Origin: Citreicoccus inhibens
GTDB taxonomy: Bacteria; Myxococcota; Myxococcia; Myxococcales; Myxococcaceae
Length of the DNA: 64,000 nucleotides
NCBI RefSeq assembly: GCF_019039035.1
Contig: NZ_JAHNZT010000015.1
Location: 1 to 64,000, forward strand
Reading direction: 5' to 3'
Shown: positions 15,560 to 20,381 of the stretch, piece after piece
Layout: every line of letters begins with the position of its first letter
Position numbering within the stretch: the first letter of the stretch is position 1
Program-made: the position numbers and the translations under genes
Notes under the pieces: generated by a model
Database searches by the model: none
The model's input: only the letters and a program-made list of their open reading frames with translations
What the model was told of the DNA's origin: nothing

Positions 15560-16873
15560 CTAGGCGCTCCGGCCGAACACGCGGCGGAAGATCTCATCCA
15601 TCTGCCGCGTGTGGTAGCCCGGGGAGAAGCAGTCGCTGATCTCCTCGGCGCTCATCATCTTGCGCAGGTCCGCGTCCGCGAGCAGCGCCTGGCGGAAGTC
15701 CACGCCCTCCTCGTACATCTTCATCGCGTTGCGCTGGACGATGACGTACGCGGCCTGCCGGTCCATGCCCTTGCGCGCCAGCTCCAGCAGCAGCCGCTGC
15801 GAGTTCACCACGCCGCCGAGCAGGTCCAGGTTCTTCTGCATCTGCTCCGGGTAGACGCGCATGTTCTCCATGAGGCCCGCGAAGCGGTGCAGCATGAAGT
15901 CCATGAGGATGGTGGCGTCCGGACCAATCACGCGCTCCACGGACGAGTGCGAGATGTCCCGCTCGTGCCACAGCGCCACGTCCTCCATGGCGCTCACCGC
16001 GAAGCCGCGCAGCAATCGCGCCAGCCCCGTGAGGTTCTCCGAGAGGATGGGGTTGCGCTTGTGGGGCATCGCGCTGGAGCCCTTCTGGCCCGGCGTGAAC
16101 GCCTCCTCCGCCTCGCGCACCTCCGTGCGCTGCAGGTGGCGGACTTCCACCGCGAACTTCTCGATGCTCGACCCGAGCAGCGCCAGCGCCGTGAAGAACT
16201 CTGCGTGACGGTCGCGCTGGATGACCTGGCTGGACGCGGGCGCGGGCTTCAAGCCCAGCTTCTGACACGCGTGCGCCTCCACCGTCGGAGGCAGGTGCGC
16301 GAACGTGCCCACCGCGCCAGAAATCTTGCCCACCGCGATGGTGTCCCGCGCGTGCATGAGGCGCTCACGGCCTCGGCGCAGCTCGTCGTACCAGATGGCC
16401 AGCTTGTGCCCGAAGGTGATGGGCTCCGCGTGGATGCCGTGGCTGCGACCCATCTGCAGCGTGTTCTTGTGCTCGAACGCGCGCCTCTCCACCGCCGCCA
16501 TCACCCGGTCCACCCCCGTGAGGATGAGGTCCATGGCGTCGCGCATGGTCATGCCCAACGACGTATCCAGCACGTCCGAGGACGTCATGCCCAGGTGCAG
16601 CCAGCGCGCGCTGGGCCCCACCCGCTCCTCCATGAACGTGAGGAAGGCGATGACGTCGTGCTTGGTGACCCGCTCGATCTCCTCGATGCGCGCCGCGTCC
16701 TCGGGGGTGAAGTCACCGGCGCGGGCCAGGCAGTCCACCAGCGCCTCGCGCGGCGCCAGGCCCGCCTCCACCATGCCCTCCAGCGCGGCCAGCTCCACGT
16801 CCCGCCAGCGGCGGTAGCGGGCGACGTCGGACCAGAGGGAGGCCATCTCCTTGCGGCTGTATCGGGGAATCAC
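15560..16873 (-). CDS. purB: Adenylosuccinate lyase
   Basis: A 437-residue member of the fumarase/aspartase family. It splits SAICAR and adenylosuccinate, releasing fumarate, in purine synthesis. The family signature SSAMPHKRNPI, with the flexible catalytic loop, is at about residues 265-275; TSSDVLDT and GRSHGIHAEP carry other active-site residues. Its start codon overlaps the stop of the upstream substrate-binding protein gene (ATGA), so it is the last gene of a kinase / binding-protein / purB operon. The PurC product on the opposite strand is its substrate supplier. Confidence 0.97.
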   Translation of the reverse strand: MIPRYSRKEMASLWSDVARYRRWRDVELAALEGMVEAGLAPREALVDCLARAGDFTPEDAARIEEIERVTKHDVIAFLTFMEERVGPSARWLHLGMTSSDVLDTSLGMTMRDAMDLILTGVDRVMAAVERRAFEHKNTLQMGRSHGIHAEPITFGHKLAIWYDELRRGRERLMHARDTIAVGKISGAVGTFAHLPPTVEAHACQKLGLKPAPASSQVIQRDRHAEFFTALALLGSSIEKFAVEVRHLQRTEVREAEEAFTPGQKGSSAMPHKRNPILSENLTGLARLLRGFAVSAMEDVALWHERDISHSSVERVIGPDATILMDFMLHRFAGLMENMRVYPEQMQKNLDLLGGVVNSQRLLLELARKGMDRQAAYVIVQRNAMKMYEEGVDFRQALLADADLRKMMSAEEISDCFSPGYHTRQMDEIFRRVFGRSA

Positions 16874-17823
16874 TCGTAGACCTTCACGGCAAAGTCCTTG
16901 CGCGCCGCGAACCGGAGCAACTCCAGCGCGGCGTCACAGGACGGACCCAACTTCTTGACGGTGGTGAGGTTGATGGACAGGTCGAGCCCCTCGGGTGACG
17001 CCACCGCCAGCGCCCCGGGATCAACCTTCTCGTGGATGATGCGATTGGCCAGCCGCCCTGCTTGCTGACCGATGGCCAGGGGACTCGGAGACAGCGCGAG
17101 CATGGCGCCCTCCTTCACCTGGCTGGGCGTGAGCGCGACGAGCGGAACTCGTCGGGCGCCGGAAAACGCGATGAGCGCCTGCACGACGGAGGCGTTGCCC
17201 ACCGTCTTGTCCGCCACCATCAAGAGGCCGTCCACCTTGCCGGCCGCGCCCTCCAGCACCTTGTCGACGCGCGCCTGCGAATCGACCTCGAGCGGGACGA
17301 TGGACATCCCCAGGGACGTGGCCGCCGCCTGGGCGCGCGTCACCGTGGCCGCCGAGTAGCGCGGGTCATGCACGATGCCCACGCGCCGAGCCTGCGGCGC
17401 CGTGGCCTGGAGCGCGGAGAGCTCCGGGACGAAGTCACTCGTGAGTGAGATGCCGGTGAGGTTGGGGCCCTCCAGCCCGTACTTCTCGTAGTACGGCACC
17501 ATGACGAAGAGGACAGGGACGTCCTCGCCCAGCGAGCGCCGGGCGGCGTTGGCCGCGAGCGGCCCCAGCGCCAGCACGAGGGCGGGCTTCTGCTGTGACA
17601 GCTTCTTGAAGGTGCGCGCCGCGGAGGCGGCATTGTCCTCCAGCAGCACCTCCGAGACCTCGGCTCGCGCCTCGGACGAGAACCCCGCGACCAGCGACGC
17701 GTACGGCGCCAGGTTCGCGGATTTCACCGCCACCACGAGCGGACGCGCCGGCCCGGAAGCCCCTTGCGCGAAGACCGCCACCGGCAGCAGAGCGACAAGG
17801 AACGCGAGGGCCCGTCGGCTCAT
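16870..17823 (-). CDS. ABC-type substrate-binding protein, TrpX/DUF534-like
   Basis: A 317-residue periplasmic binding-fold protein with signal peptide (residues 1-20, ending VFAQG). Motifs PALVLALGPLAANAA, VPVLFVMV, NLTGISL and RVGIVHDPRYSA are those of the family that includes tryptophan/tyrosine-binding TrpX proteins. No permease or ATPase gene lies next to it. Both ends overlap neighbours by 4 nt (ATGA): the upstream kinase gene and the downstream purB, so it is embedded in a translationally coupled operon. It may act as a ligand sensor instead of a transporter part; the ligand is unknown. Confidence 0.85.
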   Translation of the reverse strand: MSRRALAFLVALLPVAVFAQGASGPARPLVVAVKSANLAPYASLVAGFSSEARAEVSEVLLEDNAASAARTFKKLSQQKPALVLALGPLAANAARRSLGEDVPVLFVMVPYYEKYGLEGPNLTGISLTSDFVPELSALQATAPQARRVGIVHDPRYSAATVTRAQAAATSLGMSIVPLEVDSQARVDKVLEGAAGKVDGLLMVADKTVGNASVVQALIAFSGARRVPLVALTPSQVKEGAMLALSPSPLAIGQQAGRLANRIIHEKVDPGALAVASPEGLDLSINLTTVKKLGPSCDAALELLRFAARKDFAVKVYE

Positions 17824-20381
17824 GGGCCCACGCCCGCGCAGCATCGCAACCCGATCATGTCCGACTTCTCCTCGGGCACTCCGTTCTTTCGCGCGGAGCA
17901 CCGCACGGCGTAGTCCGGCCCATCGAAAGAGCCGCCCTTCTGGGTGAAGCCCGCGTTCGCACCATGTCGCGTGGCCGTCCACTCCGCCACGTTGCCGGAC
18001 ATGTCCGCAACGCCATATCCCGATCTGCACTGCTTGAACTGTCCAGAGGGCGCCAGTGCGCGGTCCTTCTTGGCCCGGTCCTCGGTGTTGCACGCGTCCG
18101 GGTTGAAGGTCGAGCCGTTGTCGGTGCGGTACGGGAAGCGCGCGTTGCCAGGGCCTTTGCACGCCTTCTCCCACTCCTCCTCCGTGCAAAGCCGCTTGCC
18201 CTCGCTCTCGCACAGCGACTTCGCCTCTTCCCAGCTCACCTGCACACGGGGAGGCTCGCCCGCGCGGTTGGGGTATTCGTATTCATCCACGCAGAAGGAC
18301 GCCACCTGCACGTTCTGGAGCGGCCGCTCGTCGACAAAGGCGAGCTTGTCGTCGGGCGGGGTCCCCATCTTGAACGTCCCGCCGCTCACCCACTTCATCC
18401 CCACCGGGCACCGCTCCGAGGGCACCACCGCCACCGGCACGCCACCCGCCGGCTCTCCCGTCGCGGAGGGCGCGGGCCGCGCGGGAACGGCGGCGCCCGG
18501 CCCCACCGACGCGGCTTCGACCTGCTGAGCCCGGCGATGCAACACGAGCCATCCGCCGCCCGCGCCCAGGCCCACGCCCGCGCCGCCGAGGATGACGAGC
18601 CACATGATGGCCCGCGAGCGCGCGCGCGCCGCCCGCGCCACCTGGGCCATGCGCAGCGCGCCCGTGGACCCCGGCGGCAGCTTGGGCGCCGCGCGGGCCC
18701 CGGACATCGACGGAGACAAGTCCATGTTGCGCGGCGCCGTGCGCATGCCCGAGGTCGACGCCTCACCCGCCGCGCGGGACGACGCGCGAAGAGCGCTCTG
18801 CATCGTGTCCAGCGTACGCGCCGGGCCCCGAGGAACCGAGCGCATGTCCTGCAACGTGGCCACATCCCCGGGACGAGGCTGCGGGGGACGCGCGGGCTCC
18901 GGAGCAGCACGGGCGGCCTGACGCCCATCGGGCGGAGGCTCGGCCCGCGGCGCCGGCGCGGGCTCGGGCCGGGCGGGCGGACGCGCTTCCGGTGACGGCG
19001 AGGAACGACCGTCGGGCGCGGACTCGCCTCGCGGAGCGGGGCGCCCATCGGCCACTGGCGCAGCGCGCGGCGAGGCGCGCGTGTCGAAGTCAGCCCGCTG
19101 CGCGGCGCGAGCATCGGGCGCCGGCTCTGCGGCCGCACGCGCCACCAGGTGCAGGTCCTGAAGCGTCGCGGCCGGAGCCCCGTCGCCCCCGAGCCCCTTC
19201 GACTTCGACTGCGCGTTGAGGATCATCGCCAGCGTCGCCGCATCGAGCGGCTGCGTGGCATCCGGGGGCGGCTCGTCCTCCTCCATCGCGGGAGGTGGCG
19301 CGGGCACGCGCGGCGCGGCGACCGGGAATGGCTCGCTGCTCTCCATCGACGGCAACAAGCCCGTGGGCACGGGCGGCGGCAGGCGGCTCGCGGCGCGGGC
19401 AGCGGCGGCTTGTGCCAGGGACTCGGCGCTCGGCACGGCGCGCGCGCGGGTCGCGGCCGCGGGCGAGCGCTGCATTACGTTGACGAACTCGGCGTGGAAC
19501 TCGCCCGCCGTCTTGGGCCGCGCCAACGGATTGCCGTTGAGGGCGCGGCGATAGAGCGCCTCGAAGTGCGGCGGGAGGTCCGGGTGCTTCACCAGCAGCT
19601 CCGGGATGCTCCCATCCGGAACCAGCCCGGTGATCATCTCGCCCACGATGACGCCAAGCGAGTACACGTCCATGCGCGTGTCCAGCTCGCCGCCGTTCAT
19701 GTACTCGGGCGCGATGTAGATGTCCGCGCGGTGCCCCTTCTGCGCCTGCGCGAAGGGCAGGTGCGGCACGGCGAGCCCCAGGCCGTAGTCCGTCACCTTC
19801 ACCATGTCCGGCAGGACGAGGACGTTCTCCGGCTTCAGGTCCGAATGCGGCCCGAAGCGGTGCGCCCCATCCAGCGCCGCCGCCATCTGCGCGAGCAGCG
19901 GCTCCACTTCCTTCATGGAGAAGAGGAGCCCGCGCTGCGCACGCTGCTCCATCATCCGACGGAGGGAGGTGCCCTCCAGCAGCTGCATGGTGAAGAACGG
20001 CCGGTCCCCATCCAGGCCCTCCTCGTAGACGCGCGCCAGGTTGGGGTGGTTGAGCTTCTTGCCCACGCGCAGCGACAGCGAGAACTGCGTGCGCTCCTCG
20101 GGCTGCTGCACCAGCCGGGACTGGATGGCCTTGAGCGCCACCTCCACGTCAATCTGCTGGTCCTGCGCGCGGAACACGAAGCCCAAAGGCCCCGAGCCCA
20201 CCAGCTCCTGGATGGCATAGCGGCCGGCGACGACATCTCCCGGCTTGTAGGGCGCGCTGTCCCCTCCCCGCTTGCGCGCGACGCCAGCGGCCTGGCGCGC
20301 GGCGGCGTCGGACTTGAGGCCGCAAGTTGGACACGTGTCGGACGTCTCGGGGACGTGACTGCCGCAGCGGTAGCAGAGCAA
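17820..20381 (-). CDS. Atypical Ser/Thr protein kinase with formylglycine-synthase-like C-terminal domain
   Basis: An 853-residue protein. Residues 3-22 form a zinc ribbon (CYRC ... CPTC). The kinase domain (about 53-310) has a glycine loop GSGPLGFV, VALK lysine, HSDLKPEN in place of HRD, DYG in place of DFG, and APE. The alpha-C glutamate seems replaced (FSLSLRVGKKL before NHPNL). A Pro/Ala-rich linker leads to a membrane segment (about 593-615), then an FGE/SUMF1-like domain (about 640-853) with MKWVSGGTFKMG, RLCTEEEWEKAC, MSGNVAEW and GGSFDG. Start is TTG with GGAG upstream. The FGE-like part would lie outside the cytoplasm; in many such fusions it is a ligand-binding fold, not an enzyme. 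Confidence 0.92.
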   Translation of the reverse strand: MLCYRCGSHVPETSDTCPTCGLKSDAAARQAAGVARKRGGDSAPYKPGDVVAGRYAIQELVGSGPLGFVFRAQDQQIDVEVALKAIQSRLVQQPEERTQFSLSLRVGKKLNHPNLARVYEEGLDGDRPFFTMQLLEGTSLRRMMEQRAQRGLLFSMKEVEPLLAQMAAALDGAHRFGPHSDLKPENVLVLPDMVKVTDYGLGLAVPHLPFAQAQKGHRADIYIAPEYMNGGELDTRMDVYSLGVIVGEMITGLVPDGSIPELLVKHPDLPPHFEALYRRALNGNPLARPKTAGEFHAEFVNVMQRSPAAATRARAVPSAESLAQAAAARAASRLPPPVPTGLLPSMESSEPFPVAAPRVPAPPPAMEEDEPPPDATQPLDAATLAMILNAQSKSKGLGGDGAPAATLQDLHLVARAAAEPAPDARAAQRADFDTRASPRAAPVADGRPAPRGESAPDGRSSPSPEARPPARPEPAPAPRAEPPPDGRQAARAAPEPARPPQPRPGDVATLQDMRSVPRGPARTLDTMQSALRASSRAAGEASTSGMRTAPRNMDLSPSMSGARAAPKLPPGSTGALRMAQVARAARARSRAIMWLVILGGAGVGLGAGGGWLVLHRRAQQVEAASVGPGAAVPARPAPSATGEPAGGVPVAVVPSERCPVGMKWVSGGTFKMGTPPDDKLAFVDERPLQNVQVASFCVDEYEYPNRAGEPPRVQVSWEEAKSLCESEGKRLCTEEEWEKACKGPGNARFPYRTDNGSTFNPDACNTEDRAKKDRALAPSGQFKQCRSGYGVADMSGNVAEWTATRHGANAGFTQKGGSFDGPDYAVRCSARKNGVPEEKSDMIGLRCCAGVGP

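Follow-up and report, generated by a model that had tools for sequence, protein, structure and literature searches.

A family of kinase-like membrane proteins in Myxococcota with variable catalytic residues, an FGE-fold domain and a frequently adjacent solute-binding protein gene

Domain architecture and catalytic motifs

The window considered here is a stretch of 64,000 nucleotides from Citreicoccus inhibens (Myxococcota; assembly GCF_019039035.1, contig NZ_JAHNZT010000015.1, positions 1 to 64,000), a bacterium whose genome assembly comprises 9.05 Mb in 123 contigs. The subject of this analysis is a gene with a TTG start on its reverse strand (17820..20381; all features below lie on this strand), which encodes a kinase-like protein of 853 residues, as delineated from the list of open reading frames, Pfam matches and an alignment of relatives. 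From the N- to the C-terminus the protein consists of a zinc ribbon, a Hanks-type kinase domain, a low-complexity linker, a single transmembrane helix and an FGE-fold domain, and its closest named relatives in a pattern scan are Myxococcus records. A first-pass annotation, made from the nucleotide sequence alone, had proposed an N-terminal zinc ribbon and an FGE-like domain beyond a membrane segment on either side of a kinase with degenerate motifs, and this architecture is borne out by Pfam matches, cysteine conservation and hydropathy.

The zinc ribbon (residues 3-20; 20322..20375) has the pattern CxxC-x10-CxxC. The Pfam double zinc ribbon model (DZR) matches residues 3-21 with 14.6 bits, below its cut-off of 27.3; despite this sub-threshold score we consider the ribbon to be real because each of its four cysteines is retained in 108 or 109 of the 115 aligned family rows. 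The kinase domain (residues 52-300; 19482..20228) is recovered by PF00069 (Pkinase) over residues 55-255 with 98.1 bits against a cut-off of 31.7, which identifies it as a Hanks-type Ser/Thr kinase fold. The N-terminal 310 residues gave a confident AlphaFold2 model (mean predicted local distance difference test score, pLDDT, of 87.9; predicted template modelling score of 0.85), whose nearest solved folds by Foldseek are PknA (E 2.7e-19), PknI and PknB. An Ala/Pro-rich linker of low complexity (residues 310-586; 18624..19454) leads to the transmembrane helix (residues 591-609; 18555..18611; hydropathy 1.71), and a hydrophobic segment between the kinase and FGE domains is present in all 102 of the 102 family open frames with an FGE match above 150 bits. 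Some family open frames show no FGE match, for example L103, L112 and L126.

The FGE-fold domain (residues 657-850; 17832..18413) is supported by structural matches and by the Pfam FGE-sulfatase model (PF03781), which scores 94.1 bits with its best stretch at residues 709-848, so that kinase and FGE-fold domains share one chain. Its structural model has a mean pLDDT of 75, with model residues 96-130 being poor, and aligns by VIA-align with Z-scores of about 18 to FGE, pFGE, EgtB and PvdO, and of about 15-16 to PorK and the major tropism determinant, two proteins that bind rather than catalyse. All 53 rows that extend to the active-site-type Cys828 conserve it, and none of them has a second cysteine five residues before it. 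These two positions are presumably those of the cysteine pair required by FGE, an assignment with which the entries C336S and C341S among the structural matches are consistent. With one of the two cysteines absent, formylglycine chemistry is unlikely, and we have set aside a catalytic FGE ectodomain. The Arg-rich flank preceding the transmembrane helix, together with the many conserved cysteines of the domain, suggests that it faces the periplasm.

The kinase domain retains the beta-3 (VAIK) lysine as Lys84 in a VALK context (20130..20132), the catalytic-loop Asn186, and the aspartates of the HRD and DFG motifs as Asp181 and Asp198, in agreement with the first-pass annotation. The motifs themselves read HSD at residues 179-181 (19839..19847) and DYG at residues 198-200 (19782..19790), again as originally claimed. 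The arginine before the catalytic Asp that characterizes RD kinases is accordingly not present, and in line with its loss the activation loop (residues 201-223) contains no Ser or Thr. The canonical alpha-C glutamate, which had been reported as apparently missing, is indeed replaced by Ser103 (20073..20075), as assigned by alignment to PknA and to the 87 further kinase domains counted in this genome; the structure prediction that had been proposed as a check yields, in the AlphaFold2 kinase model, a helix at residues 94-108 that contains Ser103. The motifs are thus as described, whereas their degeneracy had been overstated in one respect: DYG is a mild change that keeps its aspartate, and as Tyr occurs at this position in 44 of the 115 family rows we do not count it as a sign of inactivity.

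The same genome provided the control for these observations. Of its 99 Pkinase match rows, one belongs to the window protein, two represent the second parts of split genes and six were weak and not retrieved. The 90 loci retrieved yielded 87 domains once L041, L062 and L200 had been dropped because of wrong frames. The alpha-C Glu is present in 86 of these, the HRD Asp and the beta-3 Lys in 85 each, the DFG Asp in 84 and the HRD Arg in 77. Kinases without the alpha-C Glu are thus uncommon in this genome. Lost catalytic residues (HHN, HRG or an absent DFG Asp) are also seen in five other kinases of the genome (L209, L223, L229, L231 and L234). A second kinase-FGE fusion is encoded elsewhere in the genome (L228, G000:C79:256500-260900; open frame of 1317 residues), and was dismissed as a comparable degenerate FGE-kinase since its alpha-C Glu, HRD and DFG are canonical.

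Phyletic distribution and residue conservation of the family

A profile built on the zinc ribbon and kinase region detects the family in 83 of the 117 genomes that represent the order and in 141 of the 195 that represent the phylum Myxococcota. Among the candidates scored, 138 of the 141 family-bearing genomes contain one match each and three contain two; these copy counts are minima, as at most 19 candidates per genome were scored in the order, and at most 11 in the phylum and for the neighbouring binding protein discussed below. The range beyond the phylum was covered by a single pattern scan, in which matches from Nitrospirae/Leptospirillum (L021-L033) comprised the FGE part only and were excluded. 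Also left out of the family counts were L015, whose contig lacks the kinase part, the window protein itself (L087), identical domains, and L170, an ordinary-looking HRD/DFG kinase that is the second match in its genome (G130) and whose removal reduced the rows from 115 to 114. The resulting 114 distinct kinase domains are those that were fetched, rather than one for each of the 141 genomes.

Within these 114 domains conservation is uneven. Lys84 and His179 are invariant, Asn186 is found in 112 and the DFG Asp in 108, the six members without the latter forming a single clade on the tree. The HRD Asp position, by comparison, is occupied by Asp in 75 domains, Asn in 25, Gly in six, Ala in four, Ser in three and His in one, so that the catalytic aspartate is absent from 39; the alpha-C Glu is found in 26 and the HRD Arg in two. 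Considered jointly, 65 domains lack the alpha-C Glu and keep both aspartates, ten keep all three residues, 33 lack the HRD Asp and keep the DFG Asp, and six lack all three; no domain combines a canonical alpha-C Glu, HRD and DFG.

The same division emerges on a maximum-likelihood tree (from a fast IQ-TREE run; several of its branches are long), which was built without the trait columns. The minimum number of changes is zero at Lys84 and at His179, two at Asn186 and four at the DFG Asp, as against 25 at the HRD Asp and 32 at the alpha-C position. When 250 alignment columns are ranked by their changes, Lys (rank 2), Asn (17) and the DFG Asp (31) are among the slowest, whereas the HRD Asp (152) and the alpha-C position (187) behave like ordinary positions. 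Deep joins in this tree are unsure, and the differences between Asp and Asn at its tips are independent of them: the sister rows L096/L111, L133/L101, L100/L113 and L127/L129 each differ in this manner at the HRD position. In four pairs of relatives the ratio of non-synonymous to synonymous substitution rates (dN/dS) is 0.11-0.31 for the kinase region, 0.10-0.46 for the FGE domain and 0.21-0.67 for the linker. The kinase region in these pairs is under purifying selection, and the low ratios, along with retention of the family in 141 of 195 genomes, led us to dismiss a pseudogene or decaying gene.

Given that the HRD Asp and alpha-C Glu vary within the family and are kept in 85 and 86 of the 87 other kinases of the genome, with the nucleotide-binding residues remaining constant, phosphotransfer looks dispensable in this family and nucleotide binding does not. 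A further set of positions, namely Arg54, Asp74, Arg117, Arg141, Arg147, Phe154, Pro161 and the conserved turn Leu190-Pro191-Asp192 (19806..19814), distinguishes the family: 93% or more of its members retain each of these residues, as against 35% or fewer of the remaining kinase domains in the genome. These family-specific residues are candidates for a partner-binding surface.

Another such position bears directly on the missing alpha-C Glu. Residue 96, which is Glu in the window protein (20094..20096), lies at the start of the alpha-C helix, two turns of the helix ahead of Ser103. An acidic residue occupies this position in 98% of the members that lack the alpha-C Glu and in 100% of those that have it, compared with 2% of the other kinase domains in the genome. 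Such a residue may have released position 103 from constraint by assuming a contact to Lys84 or to the activation loop. It thereby enters into the rival explanation that survives best, unlikely as we consider it, according to which these proteins are true low-activity non-RD kinases whose missing alpha-C Glu is made good by Glu96 or by some other contact, whose activation loop needs no phosphorylation, and whose activity has been lost in side lineages only. Such an explanation would account for the presence of Lys84, Asp181, Asn186 and Asp198 beside a conserved acidic residue 96, for the 65 members that keep both aspartates without an alpha-C Glu, with ten more that keep all three residues, and for an activation loop without Ser or Thr, which suits a design of this kind. 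It is at odds with the history of the HRD Asp, which distinct lineages have lost, which differs even among close relatives and which has changed at least 25 times, unlike the nucleotide-binding residues. The overall pattern hence appears to us to fit better with a fold from which nucleotide binding, and not phosphotransfer, is demanded.

Two second, divergent family-like kinases with an alpha-C Gly and an HGD motif (L156 and L158, from G165 and G166) group together on the tree.

The neighbouring solute-binding protein

The stop codon of the kinase gene overlaps the start codon of the gene that follows it (ATGA), which encodes a solute-binding protein of the PF04392 family with 317 residues and an N-terminal hydrophobic, signal-like segment (16870..17823). 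It is the sole PF04392 match in the genome, and a periplasmic location may be inferred for its product. PF04392 presumably also includes TrpX. The latter is described as a putative tryptophan/tyrosine-type protein (PMC9382623), and the nearest solved relatives of the binding protein are PDB entries 3lkv and 6hni. The binding-protein gene is in turn followed by purB, and dut and an M23-type peptidase gene lie upstream of the kinase (all three named by sequence recognition).

Orthologues of the binding protein are found in 84 of the 195 genomes, 83 of which also contain the kinase; the one orthologue-bearing genome without it is 73% complete. This co-occurrence has a hypergeometric probability of 2.5e-15, a value that ignores the relatedness of the genomes. 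In 74 genomes both genes lie on one contig and strand, and 735-2800 bases separate the kinase-domain match from the start of the binding-protein match downstream of it. In the remaining nine the two are on different contigs, with G090, G150 and G156 having them at contig ends; in G115 and G166 the 2-4 kb downstream of the kinase contain no copy of the binding protein. G166, as well as G167, has its orthologue on a contig other than that of the kinase (L157 and L159, respectively). Weaker binding-protein matches alone are seen in 14 further genomes, none of them on the contig of the kinase.

As the orthologue was not found in 58 of the 141 kinase genomes, the binding protein is not essential to the system; that the kinase occurs without it in these genomes points to a dependence of the binding protein on the kinase and not the reverse. 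The same 58 genomes lend some support to the idea that the pairing reflects operon history only, with the FGE-fold domain binding a ligand of its own or a wall component, as does the fact that purB also follows in many loci, so that the whole cluster may be accidental. We regard this as improbable, since the orthologue occurs without the kinase in just one of 84 genomes, the incomplete one mentioned above, and since the pair persists in the remote member L016, where no dut or purB match lies nearby.

Among deep lineages of the phylum, L151, L154 and L160 have a gene that clusters with purB after the kinase, or after the kinase and binding protein. The order dut-kinase-binding protein-purB of Myxococcus also recurs, with 72-89% identity to the window, in a record deposited under the name Comamonas sp. 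KCTC 72670 (L011), which is probably mislabelled or contaminated.

Proposed function and comparison with known systems

We favour, with a probability of roughly 0.55, the interpretation that the protein is a single-pass inner-membrane receptor or scaffold of pseudokinase-like character, which would bind ATP, signal mainly without phosphotransfer and, in many species, be fed by the binding protein. It builds on the observed order of domains, conservation pattern, low copy number and pairing of the two genes; the parts that we infer are ATP binding, docking and signalling by scaffolding. In the cytoplasm, the zinc ribbon and kinase domain would hold ATP and metal via Lys84, Asn186 and Asp198, and because the HRD Asp and alpha-C Glu are not maintained, the kinase fold would signal chiefly through its conformation and the binding of partners. 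On the other side of the membrane, the FGE-fold ectodomain with its one lost FGE cysteine might act as a binding module, on which the binding protein would dock, here as in many other species, after taking up a small periplasmic ligand. The change brought about by docking could be passed to the cytoplasmic kinase fold, perhaps through clustering, as suggested by a linker of about 280 residues that is probably flexible, and the ATP-holding fold might then recruit or release its partners.

Several observations weigh against this interpretation. The HRD Asp is retained in 75 of the 114 family domains, and the window protein itself is not a pseudokinase under the three-residue rule for bacteria, namely loss of the VAIK Lys, HRD Asp or DFG Asp, since it keeps all three and also the Asn. 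Moreover, Glu96 could partly replace the alpha-C Glu, the length of the linker argues against rigid transmembrane signalling, and 58 of the kinase genomes have no recognised orthologue of the binding protein. The initial suggestion that the protein might act weakly or as a scaffold is accordingly supported for the family as a whole by its conservation pattern, while the window protein, with Lys84, Glu96, Asp181, Asn186 and Asp198 in place, is not proven to be weak. That it senses an external ligand, as had also been proposed, is plausible in view of the FGE-fold domain past the transmembrane helix and the co-occurring binding-protein gene. On a more tentative note, the family, being phylum-wide and usually single-copy, might represent one ancestral transmembrane receptor of most Myxococcota, whose kinase domain works as a nucleotide-gated switch with no need for phosphotransfer. 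Its output would be protein binding or an ATP chemistry other than phosphorylation, and in many lineages the binding protein would drive it through the FGE-fold ectodomain. Very improbable is a kinase fold with another ATP-dependent chemistry such as the nucleotidylation performed by SelO, which keeps the beta-3 Lys, catalytic-loop Asn and DYG and lacks the HRD Asp (PMC12599244, Table 1), a pattern of kept and lost residues that the family matches in its highly conserved Lys, Asn and DFG Asp, because the best structural matches are the ordinary kinases PknA, PknB and PknI and 75 of 114 members retain the HRD Asp.

The receptor or scaffold that we favour has partial parallels in several known systems. 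As presented in PMC6069109, the PknG-GlnH-GlnX system of Actinobacteria likewise has a binding-protein gene beside that of a Hanks-type kinase, PknG has an N-terminal rubredoxin module in many species, and the system has been proposed to relay the presence of an external solute through the membrane to the kinase. The locus in the window has a comparable arrangement in its adjacent PF04392 gene, which co-occurs with the kinase in other genomes. PknG, however, is catalytically active and carries a TPR domain, of which a Pfam scan of the window protein at E 0.1 found none; it also requires the separate membrane protein GlnX, whereas the family described here unites kinase, transmembrane helix and ectodomain in one chain, the last with an FGE fold, is paired with a PF04392 binding protein, and does not conserve its catalytic residues. 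Kinases that carry a DUF323/NirV (FGE-fold) domain at the C-terminus of the same chain have been described in Chlamydiae (PMC1262709), and the comparison with them covers this fusion. The FGE paralogue pFGE (SUMF2), described in the same source as non-functional, is a further example of an FGE fold without FGE function (1y4j_A; E 2.1e-13, Z 18.0), although in the window protein the fold is joined via a transmembrane helix to a kinase and one FGE-type cysteine is left.

Among the pseudokinase families covered in a 2025 review (PMC12599244), the DYD pseudokinases of Actinobacteria and Firmicutes are also membrane-associated, lack the alpha-C Glu and are predicted to bind ATP, but have the beta-3 Lys changed to Arg and DFG to DYD, in contrast to the invariant Lys of the present family and the DYG of the window protein. 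The transmembrane pseudokinase EssB/YukC is a membrane-anchored kinase fold that serves as a scaffold; it has lost all three motifs, unlike the present family, which mostly retains the nucleotide-binding ones. The families of this review that were compared differ from that of the window in motifs or architecture, and the terms FGE, formylglycine and myxo do not occur in its main text. Searches of an open-access library found no publication on the family, as judged by titles and abstract openings.

In Myxococcus xanthus 99 Ser/Thr kinases have been counted, 11 of which are called pseudokinases under the three-residue rule (PMC6791715). The M. xanthus copy of the present family (L008) has the Lys, an HSD Asp and the DYG Asp, and so passes as active by this rule, even though the catalytic Asp has been repeatedly exchanged across the phylum. 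Family-wide comparison can thus reveal likely pseudokinases that are hidden in a single sequence, and close relatives with either Asp or Asn at one position offer material for studying the kinase fold without phosphotransfer. The stimuli that activate bacterial Ser/Thr kinases are called an outstanding question in PMC6069109; the family suggests a periplasmic input to a receptor of the Ser/Thr-kinase-like type.

The linker contains a DATQP motif at residues 374-378 (19248-19262), and D[AS]TQP recurs in 47 of 112 linkers against 0.1 expected by shuffling. All 47 belong to the window's own family of genomes. The motif is a possible phosphorylation or docking site, and its recurrence could be explained by shared descent alone.

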